This document shows, piece after piece, positions 7,562-43,524 of a DNA stretch of 64,000 bases (its first letter is position 1; each line of letters opens with the position of its first letter). The stretch lies in NCBI GenBank assembly GCA_029959295.1, contig JASCOH010000001.1, forward strand, positions 310,001-374,000. The letters run 5' to 3'. The translations under genes and the position numbers were made by a program. A model generated the notes under the pieces. That model was not told the origin of the DNA. It ran no database searches and was given only the letters and a program-made list of their open reading frames with translations. Origin of the DNA: Flavobacteriaceae bacterium PS02334 (GTDB taxonomy: Bacteria > Bacteroidota > Bacteroidia > Flavobacteriales > Flavobacteriaceae).

Positions 7562-9031
7562 ATGAAAAAATTAACTTTTATACTTGGTTTGTTTCTAGTG
7601 ACTTTAGGGATAAACGCACAAATTATTGTTATTGATCCGGGTCATGGTTATGGCACCAGCACTAGCGATAATCCTGACGGAAGAACGGTTACCGAAATCG
7701 AAACCTCGCTTGCTGTCGGACAAAAGACGAAAGCTTTAATCGATGGAAGCTGTACTTGGACGACTTATTTAACGAGAACCACGAATGTTAACGGATGGAT
7801 TTCTGTCAACCAAAGAGCTTTGATGTCAAACAATTGGAACGCCGACCGACTTTTGAGCATTCATTGCAATGCTGGCGGCGGAACAGGAACAGAAACTTTT
7901 TATTGTACAGCTGACGACACAAACACGGCCCCAGATATTGCTTTTGCTCAAAAAATCCAAGCAGACATGGTCACTCACGGTGTTTGGAACAATAGAAGAT
8001 GTGTTGAAGACAACAGCTTTTTGGCTTATCACTTGGGTGTTTTGAGATATTCTTCAGCAACGGCATGTTTGAATGAAATCGGTTTTGTGGACACCACTTC
8101 TGATGCAAATAAATTGAACAGTGACAGCTGGCGCGATAACTTTGCCTTGGCTTATTTCAATGCTTTGAAATCGAATCTAAATTTGACTTGCAGTGCTGCT
8201 TCGGCTCCGGGAAGTTTCACTTTGACTTTGACTCCGGAATGTGTAGGAACTGCGACTAGAAACAGACTGAACTGGACAGCTTCAGCCAATGCAACTGGTT
8301 ATGATATTTACCGAAATGGCGCACTTTACGCAAGTAATATCGCCGGAACGCAATATCTGAATACAGCTGTAACTGTAGGAACTGCTTACACTTACTATGT
8401 AAAAGCAAAAAATGGAAGCTTAGGAACAAATAATTCAAACGGAACACTTTCTGCAACAACAATAAATTGCAGCGCAACTCCAGGAAGTTTCACGGTTACT
8501 TTGACTGCAACTTGCAGTGGAACCCAAAGCGCCATAAATGTCACTTGGACAACTTCCAGCAATGCCACTTCGTATGATATTTATAGGAATGGAAACTTAT
8601 ATGCGCAAGATTTGACCGGAAATTCCTTCTTGAATACTTATTTAATTGTAGCTGGAACGTCTTATACTTACTACGTAAAAGCGAAAAATGCCAACGGAAC
8701 TATTAATAATTCTAATGGAACACTTTCAAAAACGGCTACAAGTTGCGGTAGTGCAAAAATGATTAATTCAACTCCATCAGAAGCAGAAATTAAGCTCTAT
8801 CCAAATCCGAATAATGGTAAGTTTGTGCTTTCACTAAACAAGCAGATTGAAAACAAAGGTAGTTATGTGATTTATGATGCAACAGGAAAATTAATCCAGA
8901 ATAAATTCCTGAATAACAACAACATGAATTCAGAGATTGATATTGATATTTCAAATTTTCCAACAGGAATTTATATTGTAAATATTACAATTGATAACCA
9001 AGAATTTACTAAAAAAGTAATTAAAAACTAA
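7562..9031 (+). CDS. Secreted N-acetylmuramoyl-L-alanine amidase, T9SS substrate
   Basis: A zinc amidase (Amidase_3 type) that cuts the bond between N-acetylmuramic acid and L-alanine in peptidoglycan. After a signal peptide (1-19) the catalytic domain (about 20-205) shows the expected ligands and acid: H28 in DPGHG, E45 or E47 in TEIET, H101 in SIHCNA and E172 in LNEIGF. Two fibronectin type III domains follow (about 212-300 and 304-392). A type A T9SS sorting domain (about 405-489, with YPNPNNGKF and TGIYIV) ends the protein, so export beyond the outer membrane is expected. It could serve in attack on other bacteria or in wall turnover. Confidence 0.93.
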   Translation: MKKLTFILGLFLVTLGINAQIIVIDPGHGYGTSTSDNPDGRTVTEIETSLAVGQKTKALIDGSCTWTTYLTRTTNVNGWISVNQRALMSNNWNADRLLSIHCNAGGGTGTETFYCTADDTNTAPDIAFAQKIQADMVTHGVWNNRRCVEDNSFLAYHLGVLRYSSATACLNEIGFVDTTSDANKLNSDSWRDNFALAYFNALKSNLNLTCSAASAPGSFTLTLTPECVGTATRNRLNWTASANATGYDIYRNGALYASNIAGTQYLNTAVTVGTAYTYYVKAKNGSLGTNNSNGTLSATTINCSATPGSFTVTLTATCSGTQSAINVTWTTSSNATSYDIYRNGNLYAQDLTGNSFLNTYLIVAGTSYTYYVKAKNANGTINNSNGTLSKTATSCGSAKMINSTPSEAEIKLYPNPNNGKFVLSLNKQIENKGSYVIYDATGKLIQNKFLNNNNMNSEIDIDISNFPTGIYIVNITIDNQEFTKKVIKN

Positions 9032-9050: not shown

Positions 9051-9083
9051 AAAGCCTGAAACTGACACTTTCAGGCTTTTTTT
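9051..9083 (+). terminator. Terminator of the amidase gene
   Basis: AAAGCCTGAAA (9051-9061) and TTTCAGGCTTT (9069-9079) form an 11-bp stem with a 7-base loop and a T-run. Confidence 0.92.
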
Positions 9084-9123: not shown

Positions 9124-9158
9124 TTGTAATATTCATCAATTTTTTTGATATACATTTG
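9124..9158 (+). promoter_or_regulatory. Promoter of the arginine operon
   Basis: TACATTTG (9151-9158) is an exact -7 box. A TTG lies at 9124-9126, 24 bp upstream, somewhat far for the -33 element. Transcription should start around 9162, giving a leader of about 330 nt before the first large gene. Confidence 0.6.
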
Positions 9159-9163
9159 CACCG

Positions 9164-9241
9164 ATGAATAATTACAAGTTACATACAACTTCAATCTCAC
9201 GGACAACGTCAGCCCAAACTTCACGGGTTGTGCGGTCATAA
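9164..9241 (+). CDS. Candidate arginine leader peptide (25 codons)
   Basis: A 25-codon ORF starts five bases after the -7 box, so it should be read from a nearly leaderless mRNA. It contains three arginine codons (codons 13, 21 and 24), all CGG, a codon seldom used by the neighbouring AT-rich genes. It ends in RVVRS before a TAA. It stands at the head of an arginine biosynthesis operon. A hairpin covers its last arginine codon and stop codon (9232-9256). This is the arrangement of a ribosome-mediated attenuation leader, but the regulatory role is inferred. Confidence 0.55.
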   Translation: MNNYKLHTTSISRTTSAQTSRVVRS

Positions 9242-9492
9242 TTTTATTTATACCGCCAAAGTAAGTCGAGTCCGAATTATTTATTCATTTTTCATTTTTC
9301 ACGTTTTGAAATTTTCAACTATTTTCTTAGGATTTTACTATCCTGAATACACATTATTATTTTTAAGATTTTCAGCTTTGGCTTTTTTCCGGCCTTAGGT
9401 CTGTAGCTATTTTTATGGAATAGGTCTGCCCTATTCTTACTTCCCGCACCTAAAAATTTCCTTTTATTTTTAATCAAATCATACATTTCAAG
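9232..9492 (+). promoter_or_regulatory. Structured untranslated leader of the arginine operon
   Basis: Hairpins visible here are GCGGT-(C)-ATAA/TTAT-ACCGC (9232-9256), AGGAT/ATCCT (9329-9344) and GAATAGG-TCTGC-CCTATTC (9418-9436). TAGGTCTG occurs twice (9396-9403 and 9421-9428). ACAAC (9204-9208) can pair with GTTGT (9227-9231), which would compete with other folds. I see no textbook terminator with a long T-run, so the mechanism cannot be read from sequence alone. Confidence 0.45.
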
Positions 9493-10101
9493 ATGAATGT
9501 ATCCATTAATATTGCTCAAGAGGAGCACTATAAATTTGCACAAGAAATCTGTGACACTATGGAAGTTTCTGCCCTTTTGAGAGGAACCGGAATCGCCAAA
9601 AGATCACCAGAATACATCCAGAAAAAGATGCAAAACCACGATGCCATCATCGCTTTGGAAAACGGAAAATTTGCCGGTTTCTGCTACATTGAAAGCTGGC
9701 AACACGGGCAATTTGTGGCCAATTCTGGACTCATCGTGCATCCTGATTACAGACATTTGGGCCTTGCCAAAAAAATCAAGAAAAAGGTTTTTGAATATTC
9801 CCAAGAGAAATATCCTGGCGCAAAAATATTCGGAATCACGACGGGCTTGGCGGTAATGAAAATCAATTCCGATTTGGGTTACAAACCGGTTCCGTTTTCT
9901 GAATTGACGGCTGATCCCACGTTTTGGGCAGGTTGCAAAGGCTGTCCGAATTATGATATTTTAGAACGAAAAGAATTCAAAATGTGCCTTTGCACGGGAA
10001 TGCTTTATGACCCAAATGATAAAAAACCAGAAGAAATAAAATTTAATAAAAAAGTGCTGACAAGATTAAAACAGATCAAGCAGACTTTCCTAAAAAAATA
10101 A
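9493..10101 (+). CDS. GNAT acyltransferase heading the arginine operon
   Basis: A 202-residue acyl-CoA transferase of the GNAT superfamily. The acyl-CoA binding region is visible as LIVHPDYRHLGLAKKIKKKVF (about 80-100). The C-terminal part carries four cysteines, C148-x2-C151 and C165-x-C167, that could bind zinc. It lies four bases before argG. The operon encodes every later step of acylated arginine synthesis but no classic ArgA or ArgJ, so this enzyme is the likely N-acylglutamate synthase. Whether it uses acetyl- or succinyl-CoA is open. The family call is firm; the pathway role is inferred from position. Confidence 0.85.
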   Translation: MNVSINIAQEEHYKFAQEICDTMEVSALLRGTGIAKRSPEYIQKKMQNHDAIIALENGKFAGFCYIESWQHGQFVANSGLIVHPDYRHLGLAKKIKKKVFEYSQEKYPGAKIFGITTGLAVMKINSDLGYKPVPFSELTADPTFWAGCKGCPNYDILERKEFKMCLCTGMLYDPNDKKPEEIKFNKKVLTRLKQIKQTFLKK

Positions 10102-10105
10102 AGAA

Positions 10106-11299
10106 ATGAAAAAAGTAGTTTTAGCATATAGTGGCGGTTTAGATACTTCCTTTTGTCTCAAATATTTGAAGAATGAAAAACAGTTAGAAGTTCACACAGT
10201 CCTAATAAATACTGGTGGTTTTGACGATGAAGAATTAAATGCGATTGAAAAAAGAGCTTATGAATTAGGAAGTGCAAACCATATCAATTTGGACATCATC
10301 GACAACTATTATGAAAAAGCAATCAAATATTTAGTCTTCGGAAATGTCCTAAAAAACAATACCTATCCACTTTCTGTCAGTGCCGAAAGAGTTTTCCAAG
10401 CCATTGAAGCGGTGAAATATGCCAAGAAAGTTGGCGCATCAGCCATCGCTCACGGAAGCACTGGCGCTGGAAACGACCAAATACGTTTTGATTTGATTTT
10501 CCAAACCATCGCTCCCGAAATGGAAATCATCACGCCAATCAGAGATTTAAAATTGTCAAGACAGGAAGAAGTCGATTATTTGCAAAAAAATGGCGTGGAA
10601 TATTCTTGGGAAAAAGCGCAATATTCAATAAACAAAGGAATTTGGGGAACCAGCGTTGGCGGTAAAGAAACGCTGACTTCCAATCTTCCTCTTCCAGACA
10701 GTGCTTATCCGTCACAACTTCAAAAAACCGAAGCTGAAAAAGTGATGCTGCATTTTGAAAAAGGAGAAATTGTCGGAATCAACAATGAATTTGATAAGCC
10801 TTCAGCAAACATTATAAAACTTGAAAAACTGGCAAATGCGTTCGCAATCGGCAGAGATATTCACGTTGGCGACACGATTATCGGAATTAAAGGAAGAGTT
10901 GGTTTTGAAGCCGGAGCTCCGTTGATTATTTTAAAAGCGCACCATCTTTTAGAAAAACATACGCTCGGAAAATGGCAACAATACTGGAAAGAACAGCTCG
11001 GAAATTGGTACGGAATGCTCTTTCACGAAGGCCAATATTTGGATCCGATAATGAGAAATATCGAAGTTTTTTTGGAAGACACGCAGAAAAATGTTTCCGG
11101 AAATGTGATTGTAACCTTAAAACCCTATCATTTTTCGCTAGACGGAATTGAATCTGATCACGATTTGATGAACACAAAATTCGGTCAATATGGCGAAATG
11201 AACAATGCTTGGACAGGCGATGACGCCAAAGGTTTCATCAAAGTTTTGGGAAATGCACAATCGATTTATTCACAAGTAAATGCCGTAGATTATGATTAA
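10106..11299 (+). CDS. argG: Argininosuccinate synthase
   Basis: Joins citrulline and aspartate with ATP to give argininosuccinate, the penultimate step of arginine synthesis, in the cytosol. The 397-residue protein opens with the PP-loop ATP site AYSGGLDTS (8-16) and contains AHGSTGAGNDQIRFDL, typical of the family. The last 8 bases overlap the start of argC, so translation is probably coupled. Argininosuccinate lyase (argH) closes the same operon. Confidence 0.97.
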   Translation: MKKVVLAYSGGLDTSFCLKYLKNEKQLEVHTVLINTGGFDDEELNAIEKRAYELGSANHINLDIIDNYYEKAIKYLVFGNVLKNNTYPLSVSAERVFQAIEAVKYAKKVGASAIAHGSTGAGNDQIRFDLIFQTIAPEMEIITPIRDLKLSRQEEVDYLQKNGVEYSWEKAQYSINKGIWGTSVGGKETLTSNLPLPDSAYPSQLQKTEAEKVMLHFEKGEIVGINNEFDKPSANIIKLEKLANAFAIGRDIHVGDTIIGIKGRVGFEAGAPLIILKAHHLLEKHTLGKWQQYWKEQLGNWYGMLFHEGQYLDPIMRNIEVFLEDTQKNVSGNVIVTLKPYHFSLDGIESDHDLMNTKFGQYGEMNNAWTGDDAKGFIKVLGNAQSIYSQVNAVDYD

Positions 11300-12269
11300 A
11301 GCAGGAATTATCGGAGGTGCCGGCTACACGTCAGGCGAACTTCTACGAATTTTAGCCAACCATCCAAATGTGGAAATTGACTTTGTGTTCAGCACTTCGC
11401 AAGCCGGAAAATCGTTGACAAATGCACATCCCGATTTGATTGGAGAACTGGATTTATTTTTTACAGACAAAATAAATCCAGAAGTAAATGTTGTCTTTTT
11501 ATGTCTTGGTCACGGAAAATCGAAAGCTTTTTTGGAGCAAAATAAATTTGCGTCACACACCAGAATTATTGACTTGAGCAACGATTTCAGATTAACTAAA
11601 GATGCAGAATTTCAATCTGAGAATTTCGTTTACGGCTTGCCAGAATTGAACAGAAATGAAATTGAAAAAGCGAAATATATCGCAAATCCGGGTTGTTTTG
11701 CCACGGCAATTCAATTGGCACTTTTGCCTTTGGCTTCTGCCAATTTATTGCAAAATGATGTCCACATAAATACCGTGACAGGAAGCACTGGTGCAGGAGT
11801 TCAACCAACTGAAACATCGCATCACAGCTGGAGAAATTCCAATATTTCGCATTACAAAGCTTTTGAGCATCAGCATTTGGCAGAAATAAATCAGAGTTTA
11901 CATCAATTGCAAAACGGTTTTGAAAGCGAGATTTTATTCATTCCAAATCGTGGGGAATTTACCAGAGGTATTTTTGCCACGCTTTATACCAAAACGGACA
12001 AAAACCTAGAAGAATTAACTGAAATCTATCAAAATTTCTATAAAAATCATCCATTTGTATTCATTTCGAAGAAAAACATTAGTCTGAAAATGGCGGTTCA
12101 GACAAACAAATGCATTATTAGTTTAGAGAAAAAGGGAAAATATCTTCTGGTGACTTCTGTAATTGATAACCTCCTGAAAGGTGCTTCTGGCCAAGCAATT
12201 CAGAATATGAATTTGATGTTTGGTCTTGAAGAAACCACAGGATTAAAATTAAAACCAAGCGGATTTTAA
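11292..12269 (+). CDS. argC: N-acyl-gamma-glutamyl-phosphate reductase
   Basis: NADPH-dependent reduction of N-acylglutamyl phosphate to the semialdehyde, the third step of arginine synthesis. The 325-residue protein has the Rossmann start GIIGGAGYTSGELLRIL and the catalytic cysteine in NPGCFATAIQL. It overlaps argG by 8 bp. It is followed by a 134-bp gap with a hairpin repeat, the only real gap in the operon. Confidence 0.96.
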   Translation: MIKAGIIGGAGYTSGELLRILANHPNVEIDFVFSTSQAGKSLTNAHPDLIGELDLFFTDKINPEVNVVFLCLGHGKSKAFLEQNKFASHTRIIDLSNDFRLTKDAEFQSENFVYGLPELNRNEIEKAKYIANPGCFATAIQLALLPLASANLLQNDVHINTVTGSTGAGVQPTETSHHSWRNSNISHYKAFEHQHLAEINQSLHQLQNGFESEILFIPNRGEFTRGIFATLYTKTDKNLEELTEIYQNFYKNHPFVFISKKNISLKMAVQTNKCIISLEKKGKYLLVTSVIDNLLKGASGQAIQNMNLMFGLEETTGLKLKPSGF

Positions 12270-12281
12270 TCCTTCCAAAAA

Positions 12282-12347
12282 CTTTGCGCCTTGGCGTCTT
12301 TGCGAGAAATAAAAATCAGTCGCTCGCAAAGTCGCAAAGACGCAAAG
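12282..12347. repeat. Hairpin repeat between argC and argD
   Basis: The arms 12282-12306 and 12323-12347 are reverse complements over 25 nt with about three mismatches. Their theme is CTTTGCG and its complement, a motif common between genes in many bacteria. The hairpin would fold in the operon mRNA and might protect or attenuate it. It has no T-run. Confidence 0.7.
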
Positions 12348-12403
12348 GAAAATTCTAGTAAAGAAGTAATGCTTTTCTACGATTAACATAATTAAATATA
12401 ACA

Positions 12404-13549
12404 ATGAGCTTATTCAACGTATATCCAATATATAATATCACACCCGTCAAAGCTTTAGGAGCAAAAGTATGGGATGAAAACAACCAAGAATACCTAGATT
12501 TTTACGGAGGTCACGGCGTGATTTCCGTCGGGCATTCACATCCAAAATATGTCGAAGCAATCAAAAATCAAATTGAAAAAATAGGGTTTTATTCCAATTC
12601 GATTCAAAATCCTTTGCAAGAAGATTTTGCAAAAAAACTTGCTGCGTTTTCAGGTTATCCAGATTATAGCGTTTTTCTCTGTAATTCTGGTGCCGAAGCC
12701 AATGAGAATGCATTGAAATTGGCTTCTTTCCACAATAAAAAATCAAAAGTGATCGCCTTTGAAAAAAGCTTCCACGGAAGAACTTCTGCTTCAGTTGCTG
12801 TAACCGACAATCCATCGATTGTAGCACCAATAAACGCCAATCACGAAGTCATTTTTCTACCGTTAAATGATATTGATTTAGTCAAAAAAGCGATTGCTGA
12901 AAATGAAATCACAGCCGTAATTATTGAAGGAATTCAAGGCGTTGGCGGTTTAGACGAAGGAACAACTTCATTTTTTCAAGAACTCGAAAAAATATGCAAT
13001 GAAAATAATGTCATCTTGATTTTAGACGAAATCCAAAGCGGTTACGGCCGTTCAGGAAAGTTTTTTGCGCACCAACATCACAGCATCAAACCCGATATTA
13101 TCACGATAGCAAAAGGAATGGGCAACGGTTTCCCAATCGGAGGATTGCTAATTAGCGCTAAATTCAAAGCTTCGTATGGCTTACTGGGAACCACTTTTGG
13201 AGGAAATCATTTGGCTTGCGCTTCCGCTTTATCGGTTTTAGAAATTATCGAAAATGAAAATTTAATCGAAAATGTGAACCAACAATCGGCCTATTTTTTA
13301 GATGCAATTTCAGAAATTCCGGAGATTAAAAAAGTCAAAGGGAAAGGTTTGATGCTTGGTTTGGAATTTGATTTTGACGTAACTGAATTGCGTAAAAACT
13401 TGATTTACGAACAATTTATTTTCACCGGAAACGCTTCCCAAAAAAATCTTTTGAGAATCCTTCCGCCCTTATCTATTACTTCAAGTCAAATTAACCAATT
13501 TACTGTAGGCATAAAAAATGCGTTGCAATCAATAAAAATTACACCATGA
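12404..13549 (+). CDS. argD: N-acylornithine aminotransferase
   Basis: PLP-dependent class III aminotransferase that turns the N-acylglutamate semialdehyde into N-acylornithine. The 381-residue protein shows GGHGVISVGHSHP, CNSGAEANENALK, the ILDEIQSGYGRSG block and the PLP lysine in ITIAKGMGNGFPIGG. It overlaps the carbamoyltransferase gene by four bases (ATGA-type junction), which supports co-translation. Confidence 0.95.
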   Translation: MSLFNVYPIYNITPVKALGAKVWDENNQEYLDFYGGHGVISVGHSHPKYVEAIKNQIEKIGFYSNSIQNPLQEDFAKKLAAFSGYPDYSVFLCNSGAEANENALKLASFHNKKSKVIAFEKSFHGRTSASVAVTDNPSIVAPINANHEVIFLPLNDIDLVKKAIAENEITAVIIEGIQGVGGLDEGTTSFFQELEKICNENNVILILDEIQSGYGRSGKFFAHQHHSIKPDIITIAKGMGNGFPIGGLLISAKFKASYGLLGTTFGGNHLACASALSVLEIIENENLIENVNQQSAYFLDAISEIPEIKKVKGKGLMLGLEFDFDVTELRKNLIYEQFIFTGNASQKNLLRILPPLSITSSQINQFTVGIKNALQSIKITP

Positions 13550-14496
13550 AAAAATTCACTTCCGTAGATGACATTTTAGATCTTGACGAACTGATTTTAG
13601 CTGCAAAAAAAATAAAGTCTGCTCCTTTCGAAAATAGCGAATTGGGCAAAAATAAAACGCTCGGATTATTGTTTTTCAATCCGAGTTTGAGAACGAGATT
13701 GAGCACGCAAAAAGCTTCCTTGAATTTGGGAATGCATTGCATCGTGATGAATTTAAACACCGAAGGCTGGTCGCTAGAATTTGAAGACGGAACAGTGATG
13801 GACAGCAACAAAGCCGAACACATCAAAGAAGCCGCGCAAGTGATTTCGCAATATTGCGACGTGATCGGGATCAGAAGTTTTCCAACGTTAACCGACAAAG
13901 AAAAAGATGAAGAAGAGCAAGTGATCAATGCGTTTGTGAAATATTCTACAATTCCCGTGATCAGTCTTGAAGGCGCGACAGAACATCCGTTGCAAGCCGT
14001 TGCCGACGCGTTGACCATTCAGGAATACAAGAAAAAAAGAAAGCCAAAAGTGGTTTTGACTTGGGCGCCACATCCAAAAGCGTTGCCTCACGCAGTTCCG
14101 AATTCGTTTGTAAAAATCATGAAACTTTCTGAATACGATTTGGTGATCACGCATCCGGAAGGTTATGAATTGAATACGGAAATCACTAAAGGCGAGGCAA
14201 TTACGAATAACCAAGACGAAGCTTTTAAAAACGCTGACTTTATTTATGCCAAAAACTGGAGTTCGTATAATGACTACGGAAAGATACTTTCGAACGACAC
14301 TAATTGGACCGTAACTTCTGAGAAAATGGCGCTGACGAACAACGCAAAATTTATGCATTGTCTTCCAGTTAGAAGAAATATGATTGTGACTGATGAAGTT
14401 TTGGACAGTGAAAATTCAATCGTAATTCCGCAAGCAAATAATAGAACTTTTGCCACGCAAGCCATCCTGAAAAAAATCTTGGAAAATGGAAAATAA
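13546..14496 (+). CDS. argF': N-acylornithine carbamoyltransferase
   Basis: Transfers the carbamoyl group to an N-acylated ornithine, giving N-acylcitrulline, and replaces the usual ornithine carbamoyltransferase. The 316-residue protein shows the carbamoyl phosphate loop NPSLRTRLST (45-54), WSLEFEDGTVMD, EHPLQAVADAL and HCLPVRRNM. At position 90 it has alanine (NKAEH). In published work this position separates the acetyl-specific enzyme (Glu) from the succinyl-specific Bacteroides enzyme (Pro90), so succinylornithine is the more likely substrate. It overlaps argB by 11 bp. Confidence 0.93.
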   Translation: MKKFTSVDDILDLDELILAAKKIKSAPFENSELGKNKTLGLLFFNPSLRTRLSTQKASLNLGMHCIVMNLNTEGWSLEFEDGTVMDSNKAEHIKEAAQVISQYCDVIGIRSFPTLTDKEKDEEEQVINAFVKYSTIPVISLEGATEHPLQAVADALTIQEYKKKRKPKVVLTWAPHPKALPHAVPNSFVKIMKLSEYDLVITHPEGYELNTEITKGEAITNNQDEAFKNADFIYAKNWSSYNDYGKILSNDTNWTVTSEKMALTNNAKFMHCLPVRRNMIVTDEVLDSENSIVIPQANNRTFATQAILKKILENGK

Positions 14497-15268
14497 GCCC
14501 AAAATAACCATCGTAAAAATCGGCGGAAATATCATTGACAATGAAGAAATCCTGAACGGTTTTTTAAAAGATTTCGCTGCATTGAAAGAAGCTAAAATCT
14601 TAATTCACGGCGGTGGAAAAACAGCTACAGAAATCGCAGAAAAATTAAACTTAAAAACTTTATTTTCAAGGGGTAGAAGAATTACAAATAAAGCGATGCT
14701 TGATGTTACAGTTATGACGTATTCTGGATTAATAAACAAACAAATCATAGCCAAATTACAAGCTTTAAAAACCAACAGCATCGGTTTTTCTGGAGCTGAT
14801 GGAAACACCATTTTATCAAAAAAAAGAATAATTTCAGAAGTTGATTTTGGTTTTGTCGGCGATGTTATTTCCGTAAATAGAACGCTAATTTCAACTTTGC
14901 TTTCGCAAAATATCACGCCTGTTTTCTCCGCGATTACGCACGATGGAAACGGGCAATTATTGAACACAAATGCCGACACAATTGCTTCCGAAATTGCGAT
15001 TGCGCTGTCTGAAACTTTTGATGTAAATCTGATTTATTGTTTTGAAAAGAAAGGTGTTTTGGCAAATCCTGAAGATGATGATTCCGTTATTGAAACTTTA
15101 GATTTTGAGAAATACCAAAGCTTGAAAGCTGAAAAAGCGATTCATTCTGGAATGCTTCCAAAGTTAGAGAACTGTTTCAAATCAATCGAAAATGGTGTTC
15201 AAAACATTAGCATTGGAAATCAAAACATATTGAAAGACAGCACTATTCACACCAAAATCAAACTATGA
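14486..15268 (+). CDS. argB: N-acylglutamate kinase
   Basis: Phosphorylates N-acylglutamate with ATP, the second step of arginine synthesis and in many bacteria the feedback-controlled one. The 260-residue protein opens with VKIGGNIID and contains LIHGGGKTATEIAEKL, both nucleotide or substrate loops of the amino acid kinase fold. It lacks the long N-terminal helix of arginine-inhibited forms, so control may rest more on transcription. It overlaps both neighbours. Confidence 0.95.
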   Translation: MENKPKITIVKIGGNIIDNEEILNGFLKDFAALKEAKILIHGGGKTATEIAEKLNLKTLFSRGRRITNKAMLDVTVMTYSGLINKQIIAKLQALKTNSIGFSGADGNTILSKKRIISEVDFGFVGDVISVNRTLISTLLSQNITPVFSAITHDGNGQLLNTNADTIASEIAIALSETFDVNLIYCFEKKGVLANPEDDDSVIETLDFEKYQSLKAEKAIHSGMLPKLENCFKSIENGVQNISIGNQNILKDSTIHTKIKL

Positions 15269-16338
15269 AAACCATCGACCAACTTACAAACGAAGCCATA
15301 GATTTGTTAAAAAACCTGATCGAAACGCCTTCTTTTTCATCCGAAGAAAACAATACTGCGATTCTGCTTGAAAACTGGTTTATTTCTAACGGAATTAATT
15401 TCAAAAGAGAGAACAATAATATTTGGGCTTACAATTTACATTTCGATAAATCAAAACCAAATTTACTGCTCAACTCCCACCACGACACGGTTAAGCCAAA
15501 CGAAGGTTATACTTTAAATCCGTTTTCAGCGATTGAAAAAGACGGAAAATTATTCGGCTTGGGAAGCAATGACGCTGGCGGTTGCTTGGTTTCATTGATT
15601 GCGACTTTCACATATTTTTATGCGTTTGAAAATCTTCCATACAACTTGATTATCGCAGCAACTGCCGAGGAAGAAAGCAGTGGTCCAAACGGTTTGAACA
15701 GTATTTTAAAGCATCTTCCGGAGATTGATGTGGCAATTGTTGGCGAACCAACAGAAATGCATTTGTCCATAGCTGAAAAAGGATTGTTGGTTTTAGACAT
15801 CATCATTTCAGGAACTGCAAGTCATGCGGCACATCAAAATTTAGACAATCCAATTTATAATATTTTACCAATAATTGAATGGTTTAAAACCTATGAATTT
15901 GAGAAAATATCTGAAGTTTTAGGTCCAGTAAAAATGACGGTGACACAGATAAATGCTGGAAAACAGCACAATGTTGTTCCATCAGAATGCAGTTTGGTTG
16001 TAGATATCCGTGTCAATGATTGTTATTCGAATTCAGAAATATTGGAAGTTGTGAAGCAAAATGTTAATGCAAAAGTAACTCCGAGATCGATGCACTTGAA
16101 TGCCTCTTCCATTGACAAAAATCACGCTTTAGTTCAAGCCGGAATTTCGTTAGGGAGAAACACATATGGGTCGCCAACGCTTTCCGATCAATCAGTTTTG
16201 AGTTGCCAATCGATGAAACTCGGACCCGGAAATTCTTTGCGTTCACACACGGCAAATGAATTTATATTTATTAATGAAGTAAAAGAAGGTATTAATTTGT
16301 ATATCAAAATTATATCGAATTTTTTAAACCTAAATTAG
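15265..16338 (+). CDS. argE: M20 deacylase acting on N-acylcitrulline/ornithine
   Basis: Metal-dependent M20 peptidase-family enzyme that removes the acyl group; in this operon the substrate should be N-acylcitrulline. The 357-residue protein shows the di-metal ligands in NSHHDTVKP (H72/H73, D74), SNDAGG (D103), TAEEESSG (E135/E136) and VGEPTEM (E161). The smaller dimerisation domain with GTASHAAH lies in the middle. It overlaps argB by four bases and is followed by argH after five. Confidence 0.9.
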   Translation: MKTIDQLTNEAIDLLKNLIETPSFSSEENNTAILLENWFISNGINFKRENNNIWAYNLHFDKSKPNLLLNSHHDTVKPNEGYTLNPFSAIEKDGKLFGLGSNDAGGCLVSLIATFTYFYAFENLPYNLIIAATAEEESSGPNGLNSILKHLPEIDVAIVGEPTEMHLSIAEKGLLVLDIIISGTASHAAHQNLDNPIYNILPIIEWFKTYEFEKISEVLGPVKMTVTQINAGKQHNVVPSECSLVVDIRVNDCYSNSEILEVVKQNVNAKVTPRSMHLNASSIDKNHALVQAGISLGRNTYGSPTLSDQSVLSCQSMKLGPGNSLRSHTANEFIFINEVKEGINLYIKIISNFLNLN

Positions 16339-16343
16339 AACTT

Positions 16344-17624
16344 ATGAAACTTTGGGAAAAAGGAATACCGACCGATCAAAAAATAGATCTATTCACTGTT
16401 GGAAATGATCGAGAGTTGGATTTGGTTTTAGCAAAATATGACGTTTTAGGTTCGATGGCTCACGCCAAAATGTTGCAGAAAATCAATATACTTTCGGAAA
16501 AAGAAACGACCGATTTGGTCAGAACTTTAGAAGAAATTTTGGTTGAAATTGAAAAAGGAAACTTTACAATCGAAGACACTTTTGAAGATGTGCATTCTAA
16601 AATCGAATATCTTTTAACCGAAAAACTCGGCGATACCGGAAAAAAAATCCACACGGCGCGTTCCAGAAATGATCAAGTTTTGGTAGATATTCATTTGTAT
16701 TTGAAAGCCGAAATTTCCGAAATAAAAAAGCTCACAAAAGAACTGTTTGATTTATTGATTTCCTTGAGCAAAAAGTATGAAAACGTCTTGCTTCCTGGTT
16801 ATACGCATCTGCAAATTGCAATGCCTTCTTCCTTTGGGATGTGGCTTTCCGCCTATGCTGAAACGCTGGTTGATGATGTTGTTTTGCTAAATGCGGCGCA
16901 GAAAATCGTGGATCAAAATCCGCTTGGTTCTGCGGCGGGTTATGGAAGTTCTTTTCCGATTGACAGAACTTTTACGACACAAGAATTACACTTTGCTACT
17001 TTGAAATACAATTCTGTCGCCGCACAAATGAGTCGTGGAAAATCGGAGAAAACGGTTGCTTTTGCCATGTCAGGATTGGCTTCCACTGTTTCAAAATTGG
17101 CGATGGATATTTGTCTTTATATGGGCCAAAACTTCAATTTCATCAGTCTTCCGAGTCATTTGACGACGGGCTCAAGCATTATGCCACACAAGAAAAACCC
17201 CGATGTTTTTGAATTGATCAGAGCCAAATGCAATAAAATTCAGGCGTTGCCATATGAAATTACGTTGCTGACCAATAATCTGCCAAGCGGTTACCACAGG
17301 GATTTTCAATTGCTGAAAGAAGGACTTTTTCCAGCGATTCAAAGCTTGAAATCGTGTTTGGAAATCGCCAGTTTTGCCATTAAAGATATTCAGGTGAATG
17401 AAACGATTTTAGACGATAAAAAATACGATTACCTTTTTACGGTGGATACTTTGAATGAATTGGTTACCGAAGGAAAACCGTTTAGAGATGCGTATAAAAT
17501 CGTGGCCGAACAAATTGAAAACAACACTTTTCAATCACCAAAAGCCACGAAACATACGCACGAAGGAAGTATTAATAATTTGTGTTTGGAGGAGATTGTT
17601 TTGAAGATGGAGGCTGAAATTTAA
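16344..17624 (+). CDS. argH: Argininosuccinate lyase
   Basis: Splits argininosuccinate into arginine and fumarate, the last step of the pathway. The 426-residue protein carries the superfamily signature GSSIMPHKKNPD, the HTARSRNDQ block and the LLPGYTHLQIAMP block. It ends the operon. I see no clear hairpin terminator after it. Confidence 0.96.
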   Translation: MKLWEKGIPTDQKIDLFTVGNDRELDLVLAKYDVLGSMAHAKMLQKINILSEKETTDLVRTLEEILVEIEKGNFTIEDTFEDVHSKIEYLLTEKLGDTGKKIHTARSRNDQVLVDIHLYLKAEISEIKKLTKELFDLLISLSKKYENVLLPGYTHLQIAMPSSFGMWLSAYAETLVDDVVLLNAAQKIVDQNPLGSAAGYGSSFPIDRTFTTQELHFATLKYNSVAAQMSRGKSEKTVAFAMSGLASTVSKLAMDICLYMGQNFNFISLPSHLTTGSSIMPHKKNPDVFELIRAKCNKIQALPYEITLLTNNLPSGYHRDFQLLKEGLFPAIQSLKSCLEIASFAIKDIQVNETILDDKKYDYLFTVDTLNELVTEGKPFRDAYKIVAEQIENNTFQSPKATKHTHEGSINNLCLEEIVLKMEAEI

Positions 17625-43342: not shown

Positions 43343-43382
43343 ATTGATGAATCTGAAATCTAAATTCTTAAATCTGCTTTAC

Positions 43383-43524
43383 TAGCCCAGATTGCAGCGG
43401 AAAGCTTTTTTGAAAAACCGACATTTTTTGCCTGATAAAAAAAGCGACCGGAGGAAGCTCTTTTTTAGTAGAGCAAAAAAGGAGGCTTGAAAAAAACTTG
43501 GAGCGGAAAGCTGGAAATAGCTTC
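43383..43524 (+). repeat. AGCCC dispersed repeat, full copy
   Basis: Blocks in order are AGCCCAGATTGCAGCGGAAA, GCGACCGGAGGAAGCTC and CTTGGAGCGGAAAGCTGG, ending at ATAGCTTC. Compare 41360-41500 (opposite strand) and 57743-57885. Confidence 0.8.

Follow-up and report, generated by a model that had tools for sequence, protein, structure and literature searches.

How is arginine biosynthesis matched to the supply of arginine in a genome in which the N-terminal domain of the arginine repressor cannot be detected? The window, by which we mean the whole stretch of 64,000 nucleotides analysed here, raises this question with an arginine operon that is preceded by a long leader, for which the initial annotation had proposed ribosome-mediated attenuation by arginyl-tRNA. 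The sensing side of that proposal is supported, by a conserved ORF with Arg codons, a hairpin at its stop codon and the lack of any ArgR N-domain match; the classical output of an attenuator appears doubtful, no terminator-like site having been found in the window leader. What the comparisons point to, with moderate confidence, is an arginine-sensing, ribosome-mediated leader with two upstream ORFs (uORF1 and uORF2), of which the sensor half, a conserved Arg-codon leader ORF upstream of the arg operon, appears well supported.

The operon (Table 1) opens with a gene for a GNAT acetyltransferase, which probably provides the N-acylglutamate synthase step. Among the genes that follow, argC, argB, argH and the carbamoyltransferase score above the curated NCBIfam cut-offs, and argG, argD and the ArgE-like hydrolase are best matches below them. 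In model bacteria, the control of arginine operons is mostly ascribed to a repressor. The Pfam model of the ArgR N-domain (PF01316), the one model on which the repressor search relied, has no match in this genome and exceeds its cut-off in none of 21 genomes, a single match (in G008) falling below it; as a control, it matches 9 of 14 named genomes, including E. coli, B. subtilis and Bacteroides ihuae. Relatives of the leader were collected with the GNAT protein as bait, which gave 194 loci; a loose leader rule finds a candidate in 173 of them and none in 21, some of the picks being wrong (L003, L008, L036, L055, L075 and L189 among them), and L024 is omitted from the GNAT alignment for the two stops in its stretch. 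The GNAT protein itself is unmatched at E 0.001 in 118 of 299 Flavobacterium genomes, and a number of others hold two matches.

Table 1. Leader and operon features in the window, with the basis of each assignment.
Feature	Position	Strand	Basis or remark
-7 box TACATTTG of a Bacteroidetes sigma-A promoter	9151..9158	+	motif; spacing kept in relatives
uORF1, predicted leader ORF, 25 codons	9164..9241	+	translates to MNNYKLHTTSISRTTSAQTSRVVRS-stop
S0 5' strand ATGAATAA, possible long-range stem with 9281-9288	9164..9171	+	MFE folds
Arg codons of uORF1, CGG x3	9200, 9224, 9233	+	
CGGAC (first Arg codon + 2 nt), complementary to GTCCG 9270-9274	9200..9204	+	duplex test; not in MFE
Hairpin GCGGT (9232-9236) / ACCGC (9252-9256) over third Arg codon and uORF1 stop	9232..9256	+	MFE folds
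uORF2, putative TTG start, LKFSTIFLGFYYPEYTLLFLRFSALAFFRP-stop, ends CGG CCT TAG	9306..9398	+	frame kept open in type B relatives
P1 hairpin GGCC-TTA-GGTC spanning the end of uORF2 (last Arg, Pro and stop codons)	9391..9401	+	position, RP-stop, 49-leader alignment
P2 hairpin GAATAGG-TCTGC-CCTATTC	9418..9436	+	MFE of 9164-9510, 9340-9510 and 9380-9450; alignment
GNAT acetyltransferase, first operon gene	9493..10101	+	Pfam PF00583, 1.6e-08
argG, argC, argD, N-acetylornithine carbamoyltransferase, argB, ArgE-like M20 hydrolase, argH	10106..17624	+	NCBIfam matches

The short ORF that was first annotated, of 25 codons with three Arg codons that are all CGG, is present as described, and the claim that this codon is rare in the adjoining genes is borne out by a count of one CGG in 94 Arg codons over 12 neighbouring ORFs. 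By contrast, the 115 uORF1 picks from Flavobacterium, a tally in which relatives are counted more than once, use CGG for 237 of their 266 Arg codons. The 41 tRNA genes found in this draft genome include tRNA-Arg genes with the anticodons TCT, TCG, ACG and CCT; since none with the anticodon CCG was found among them, it is presumably tRNA-Arg UCG that decodes CGG.

The promoter motif would place uORF1 at or near the very start of the transcript. In F. psychrophilum the sigma-A -7 box is reported at positions -12 to -5 (PMC9723704), and if it lies so here, the predicted +1 would be 9163 and the 5'UTR would measure about 1 nt. Across 111 distinct Flavobacterium leaders the uORF1 ATG stands behind TAnnTTTG at a gap of 5 nt in 98, 6 nt in 7 and 4 nt in 6 (one row per distinct leader, conditioned on a filter of 4-6 nt, with loci L083-L134 left out), and it is because of this constant gap that uORF1 is probably leaderless. 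Since most transcripts are described as leadered both in F. psychrophilum, where 5.5% are leaderless (PMC9723704), and in F. johnsoniae (PMC6847099), the leaderless start is one that we infer. A general leaderless-leader layout in this genome was considered and rejected: the pattern TANNTTTGCNNNNATGAA occurs four times, as compared to three for its backward control, which is chance level, and its other three sites start ORFs of 59, 115 and 152 codons, none of them a short leader ORF. The arg leader probably starts a separate transcript, because a terminator-like hairpin followed by a T-run lies at 9051-9079 (+), behind the upstream ORF 7562-9031.

The check that had been proposed for this leader, namely whether relatives conserve the ORF and its Arg codons, finds both of them kept, along with the box-to-ATG spacing. 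Codon 13 of uORF1 is Arg in 108 of the 111 distinct Flavobacterium leaders, and all 111 have an Arg within the last 8 codons. The 52 loci from outside the genus (L083-L134) belong mostly to other Flavobacteriaceae genera, some being unplaced metagenome records; 51 of them have an upstream ORF in which two or more of the final ten codons are Arg, against 10 on the antisense strand and 10.7 in shuffles; in other families of the class an Arg-tailed upstream ORF is found in 35 of 40 loci, hand-chosen from the listed matches outside the order at one to a few per family, against 12 and 11.3, respectively. Examples of the ends of these ORFs are RPFAPRRRP, RRRPGC and FRRRPSGRV; in Maribacter, Zobellia and similar genera a single ORF is seen, near the promoter and ending in RRRP-stop. 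With uORF1, its Arg codons and the box spacing all conserved, the arrangement is more than chance. The uORF1 peptide shows no amino-acid constraint (synonymous fraction.279 vs.292 for neutral change, 49 near pairs), with a slight third-position excess in the substitutions by codon position (78/78/103).

The hairpin that spans the third Arg codon of uORF1 and its stop, also part of the initial annotation, belongs to the MFE structure of each of the segments 9164-9305, 9164-9330 and 9164-9510. A hairpin occupies the same place in 26 Flavobacterium leaders without an RP end, where 89.7% of its cells are paired and 3 of 9 pairs show two-sided changes; out of 500 shuffles, one reaches its covariation score, 10 its share of paired cells, and 490 its number of pair types.

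The second ORF, uORF2, was missing from the initial annotation. Its TTG start follows the uORF1 stop by 44-66 nt in the Flavobacterium set (36 nt in L064, 39 nt in L040), and its stop falls within -8 to +11 of the GNAT ATG in 90 of 111 distinct leaders, the type B relatives, in which the frame is open and stops at the next start: the stop precedes the ATG by 1 nt in 63 of the 111 (mostly as TGA-A-ATG) and overlaps it as ATGA (+4) in 19. In the remaining leaders uORF2 ends in RP-stop (10), ends elsewhere (10), or was not found (one). The window leader itself, with the uORF2 stop 94 nt upstream of the GNAT ATG, does not have the stop-start arrangement of the type B relatives. Among 54 non-redundant type B leaders the uORF2 frame holds 31 stops, as compared to 240 and 248 in the other two frames, and is fully open in 42, as compared to 0 and 6 (0.55 expected from shuffles); the starts of at least five of these leaders (L037, L043, L046, L143 and L190) are mis-picked and were kept as closed. 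Within Flavobacterium the uORF2 peptide is also free of amino-acid constraint (synonymous fraction.212 vs.245 neutral, 27 near pairs), and its substitutions by codon position, 141/139/138, show no third-position excess. Because the substitutions show no such constraint, it seems to be the translation of the two uORFs that is under selection, the sequence of the peptides being free. A fusion of uORF1 and uORF2 by frameshifting was rejected, the frame relation of the two being 55/30/30 in 115 leaders and hence not conserved; uORF2 is for this reason taken as separate from uORF1. Counting against a translated uORF2, its putative start is a non-AUG codon (TTG), and the phylum has no Shine-Dalgarno sequences. 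Several type B species (for example L006 and L008) carry a local palindrome such as TTGGATTTTCAAATCCAA in codons 8-14 of uORF2.

If uORF1 is the sensor, its reading must be turned into an output, and the most serious alternative to the leader proposed here concerns this step: in classical transcription attenuation, the stalled ribosome would make the RNA form an antiterminator instead of an intrinsic terminator ahead of GNAT. We regard this as doubtful for the locus. The remark of the initial annotation that no clear T-run terminator is visible agrees with a scan of the window leader, which finds no terminator-like site on the + strand; P1 and P2 carry no T-run in the window. Of 11 type A leaders scanned in Flavobacterium, 9 are likewise free of terminator-like sites, and in the other two (L003 and L036) a single weak site precedes P1. 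What speaks for it comes mostly from further afield. Under a loose rule, 35 of 173 leaders contain terminator-like sites, as compared to 8.2 in shuffles; many of these sites are P1 in other genera, where this hairpin has a high GC content and a loosely T-rich stretch behind it, and some lie in Flavobacterium, so that a weak intrinsic terminator may exist in some leaders of that genus; a strict rule finds such sites in 4 of 40 class-level loci. Two loci of one other family, L261 and L267, have at the same gene an RR/RRR leader ORF, then a hairpin of 11-12 bp with a T-run, then another ORF. These clear terminators lie upstream of GNAT at -204 to -178 (L261) and -231 to -203 (L267), where the numbering runs back from the end of the retrieved sequence. 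Even there, however, folds with the first 48 nt masked still give the terminator and so do not reveal an antiterminator.

For the leader with two uORFs, the second uORF and the two-hairpin element suggest, for most Flavobacterium at the least, that the output is obtained via translation, by coupling or by protection against Rho. Rho sites tend to hold more C than G. Downstream of uORF1, C exceeds G in all 119 Flavobacterium-set picks (median ratio 1.6) and in 30 of 41 others; of 5100 background windows, however, 194 attain the ratio seen in the window leader, which makes it a weak signal.

In some of the loci an ORF ends in RP-stop at about this place. This ending is found in 56 of the 194 loci, comprising 42 of the 52 outside the genus and 14 of the Flavobacterium set (L001, which is the window, L002, L003, L007, L020, L031-L034, L036, L040, L055, L064 and L145), and the stop codon lies in or beside the P1 loop in the alignment of such leaders. 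TnaC, SpeFL and the fungal arginine attenuator peptide are models of nascent-peptide arrest, and free arginine might in the same manner arrest a peptide at the RP-stop of uORF2, which has about 30 codons in type A leaders. This we consider very improbable, since the expected constancy of peptide and stop is not seen: as read by eye, L214 and L222 have their stop beyond the P1 loop, and L216, L223 and L224 have an ending other than RP-stop, although all five retain Arg codons and hairpin; the endings of L093 and L114 are RRLVRV and RRLVRI; most Flavobacterium leaders have no RP end; and in this genus the uORF2 sequence is as unconstrained as described above. A stop-codon arrest peptide was rejected as unlikely on the first five of these loci.

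The initial annotation had the 250 nt upstream of the first enzyme gene filled with further hairpins; this is borne out in part, the hairpins supported by comparison being two near 9391-9436. A covariance model of P1/P2 (R1), built from 29 sequences outside Flavobacterium, matches 33 of 395 genomes of the order, with one match each, and all 30 matches that were fetched lie upstream of GNAT. On 51 aligned model matches (alignment A4, fitted to the model, mostly from other genera and not including the window), 92.0% of the cells pair and 10 of 13 pairs show two-sided changes, values reached by none of 500 shuffles; four of the rows have E >0.05, and L118 3581-3631, on the other strand, is presumably a chance match. 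The model gives no match at E 1 on the window and none at E 0.001 on its genome, P1 of the window is missing from the MFE folds of the leader, and RNAalifold recovers only 4 pairs from a MAFFT alignment of 49 P1/P2 sequences, in which two P1 registers are misaligned. The conserved loop, the covarying stems and the single copy per genome, always at GNAT among those fetched, are what one would expect of a direct arginine sensor, be it an aptamer or a protein-binding element, with the uORFs in a secondary role; against this stands that most Flavobacterium leaders have no RP-stop carrying P1 but do have uORF1 with its Arg codons, and that P1 overlaps Arg codons itself, which leaves such a sensor a shade less credible still than peptide arrest. 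A resemblance of the P2 loop to a complement of Shine-Dalgarno sequences was considered and rejected, as it is not kept in the Flavobacterium versions.

Outside Flavobacterium, the search for covarying stems that the initial annotation had also foreseen supports P1/P2 and a long-range stem; within the genus the long-range stem is not supported. In the window, S0 appears in the MFE folds of 9164-9305 and 9164-9330 and is absent from that of the full-length 9164-9510. Among leaders from other genera that have two uORFs, the opening 36 nt of uORF1 pair with the 75 nt directly downstream of that ORF: the pairing energy of 23 leaders is -13.4 kcal/mol with their own spacers vs -9.9 with swapped ones, and that of 12 non-redundant leaders -14.0 vs -9.65 kcal/mol, reached in both cases by 0 of 2000 permutations, with reversed controls at z -1.4 and -1.0 for the 23 leaders and about 0 for the 12. 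Within Flavobacterium, long-range pairing is without covariation support (249 and 717 of 2000 permutations). The codon-13 region scores z -8.4 against its own spacer in this genus, but the reversed controls are shifted too (z -4.0 and -4.8), so that part of this signal is relatedness; one of the five Flavobacterium tests, of uORF1 nt 61 to the end, was discarded for artefact energies. A single conserved structure of the uORF1-spacer domain was rejected, RNAalifold finding none in 32 Flavobacterium leaders. The least probable reading of all, that this is an ordinary long 5' region conserved by common descent only, could appeal to the many close kin among the leaders, to the neutral amino-acid changes in both uORFs and to these shifted controls, but is contradicted by the avoidance of stops in one frame only, by Arg-tailed ORFs far above antisense and shuffles throughout the class, and by the compensatory changes in other genera.

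In the arginine-sensing leader that we favor, uORF1 would start within about one nucleotide of the 5' end of the transcript, and a shortage of Arg-tRNA would stall the ribosome at its CGG codons. The stalled or queued ribosome would then block the pairing of uORF1 with the spacer upstream of the uORF2 start, allowing uORF2 to be translated. In most Flavobacterium, translation of uORF2 would reach the GNAT start and hand over ribosomes by termination-reinitiation; it would also shield the C-over-G stretch that could otherwise load Rho. In the lineage of the window and in other genera, uORF2 would instead end at its own Arg codon or codons against P1, followed by P2, as a second checkpoint. With ample arginine, uORF1 would be finished and the ribosome released; the long-range stem and the hairpins would form, uORF2 would not be entered, and the operon would stay low. 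Comparative evidence supports both uORFs, the Arg codons and the uORF1-end hairpin, and in other genera P1/P2 and the long-range pairing; the direction of the response and the roles of Rho or coupling and of P2 are, like the leaderless start, what we infer from them. One point against this model is that a ribosome halted at codon 13 would, on its own, leave nt 1-8 of uORF1 uncovered.

A more specific version, which we advance tentatively and hold to be possible rather than probable, is a two-stage relay without an arginine repressor. Here the start region of the leaderless Arg uORF would form one strand of a long-range stem and guard the non-AUG start of uORF2, the translation of which would constitute the output; uORF2 would be free in its sequence and stay open solely to bring ribosomes to the first gene. 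If this holds, ribosomes would exert the arginine control of this operon, leaderless initiation would compete directly with mRNA folding, and the ends of the leader (classical terminator, P1-P2 hairpins and start-stop coupling) would be interchangeable across Bacteroidia.

Leader-peptide attenuators of the trp, his and leu type are long established, and Bacteroidetes have the Bacteroid-trp motif of Rfam. Like these, the window leader has a conserved short ORF with codons for the end product of its operon near the 5' end, this nearness being read from the promoter motif; unlike them, it lacks the intrinsic T-run terminator (which L261 and L267 do possess) and has a second uORF. The leader ORF of Sinorhizobium trpL, which responds to tryptophan and acts through a classical terminator, is said to be leaderless. 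For F. psychrophilum, strong indications of attenuation by leader peptides have been reported ahead of amino-acid operons, with no arginine operon, second uORF or P1-P2-like element named in the parts consulted (PMC9723704). The nearest worked case, by analogy, would be orf34 in the leader of Salmonella speF, a uORF whose Arg codons sense arginine by ribosome pausing and whose signal is carried by Rho termination and by structures near the downstream start, its authors having detected no intrinsic terminator (PMC6386406). It differs in that the gene encodes an ornithine decarboxylase, the one uORF lies at +32 and encodes a conserved peptide domain (DUF2618), and ornithine is an inducer; as far as that description goes, there is also neither a leaderless start nor a second coupled uORF (PMC6386406). 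In S. aureus rbfL, a leader peptide with rare Arg codons adjoins the downstream start, low arginine stalls ribosomes, and the output is reported as translational; however, it has one uORF of 8 codons, and low arginine lowers a biofilm regulator, the opposite sign to the model here (PMC13009471). No arginine leader in Bacteroidetes, and no arg biosynthetic attenuator with this layout, was seen in the portion of the open-access literature, supplements aside, that was covered. Leader attenuators for amino acids being known already, the arginine layout with two uORFs would thus represent a new variant.

If true, the model would place under an RNA switch a pathway that is often repressor-run in other bacteria, with an Arg-codon leader conserved across families of the class, in a genome without a detectable ArgR N-domain and a phylum without Shine-Dalgarno sequences. 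It would also provide, with a single sensor in front, a natural series of output devices that can replace one another, and, in testable form, a leaderless uORF and a non-AUG uORF that relay amino-acid starvation.

The window leader has no match above gathering in Rfam release 15, and the six matches obtained at E up to 5 for seven loci all lie below gathering; the sole Rfam match above gathering in the window is a Flavo-1 RNA (RF01705) at 43380-43521 (+).
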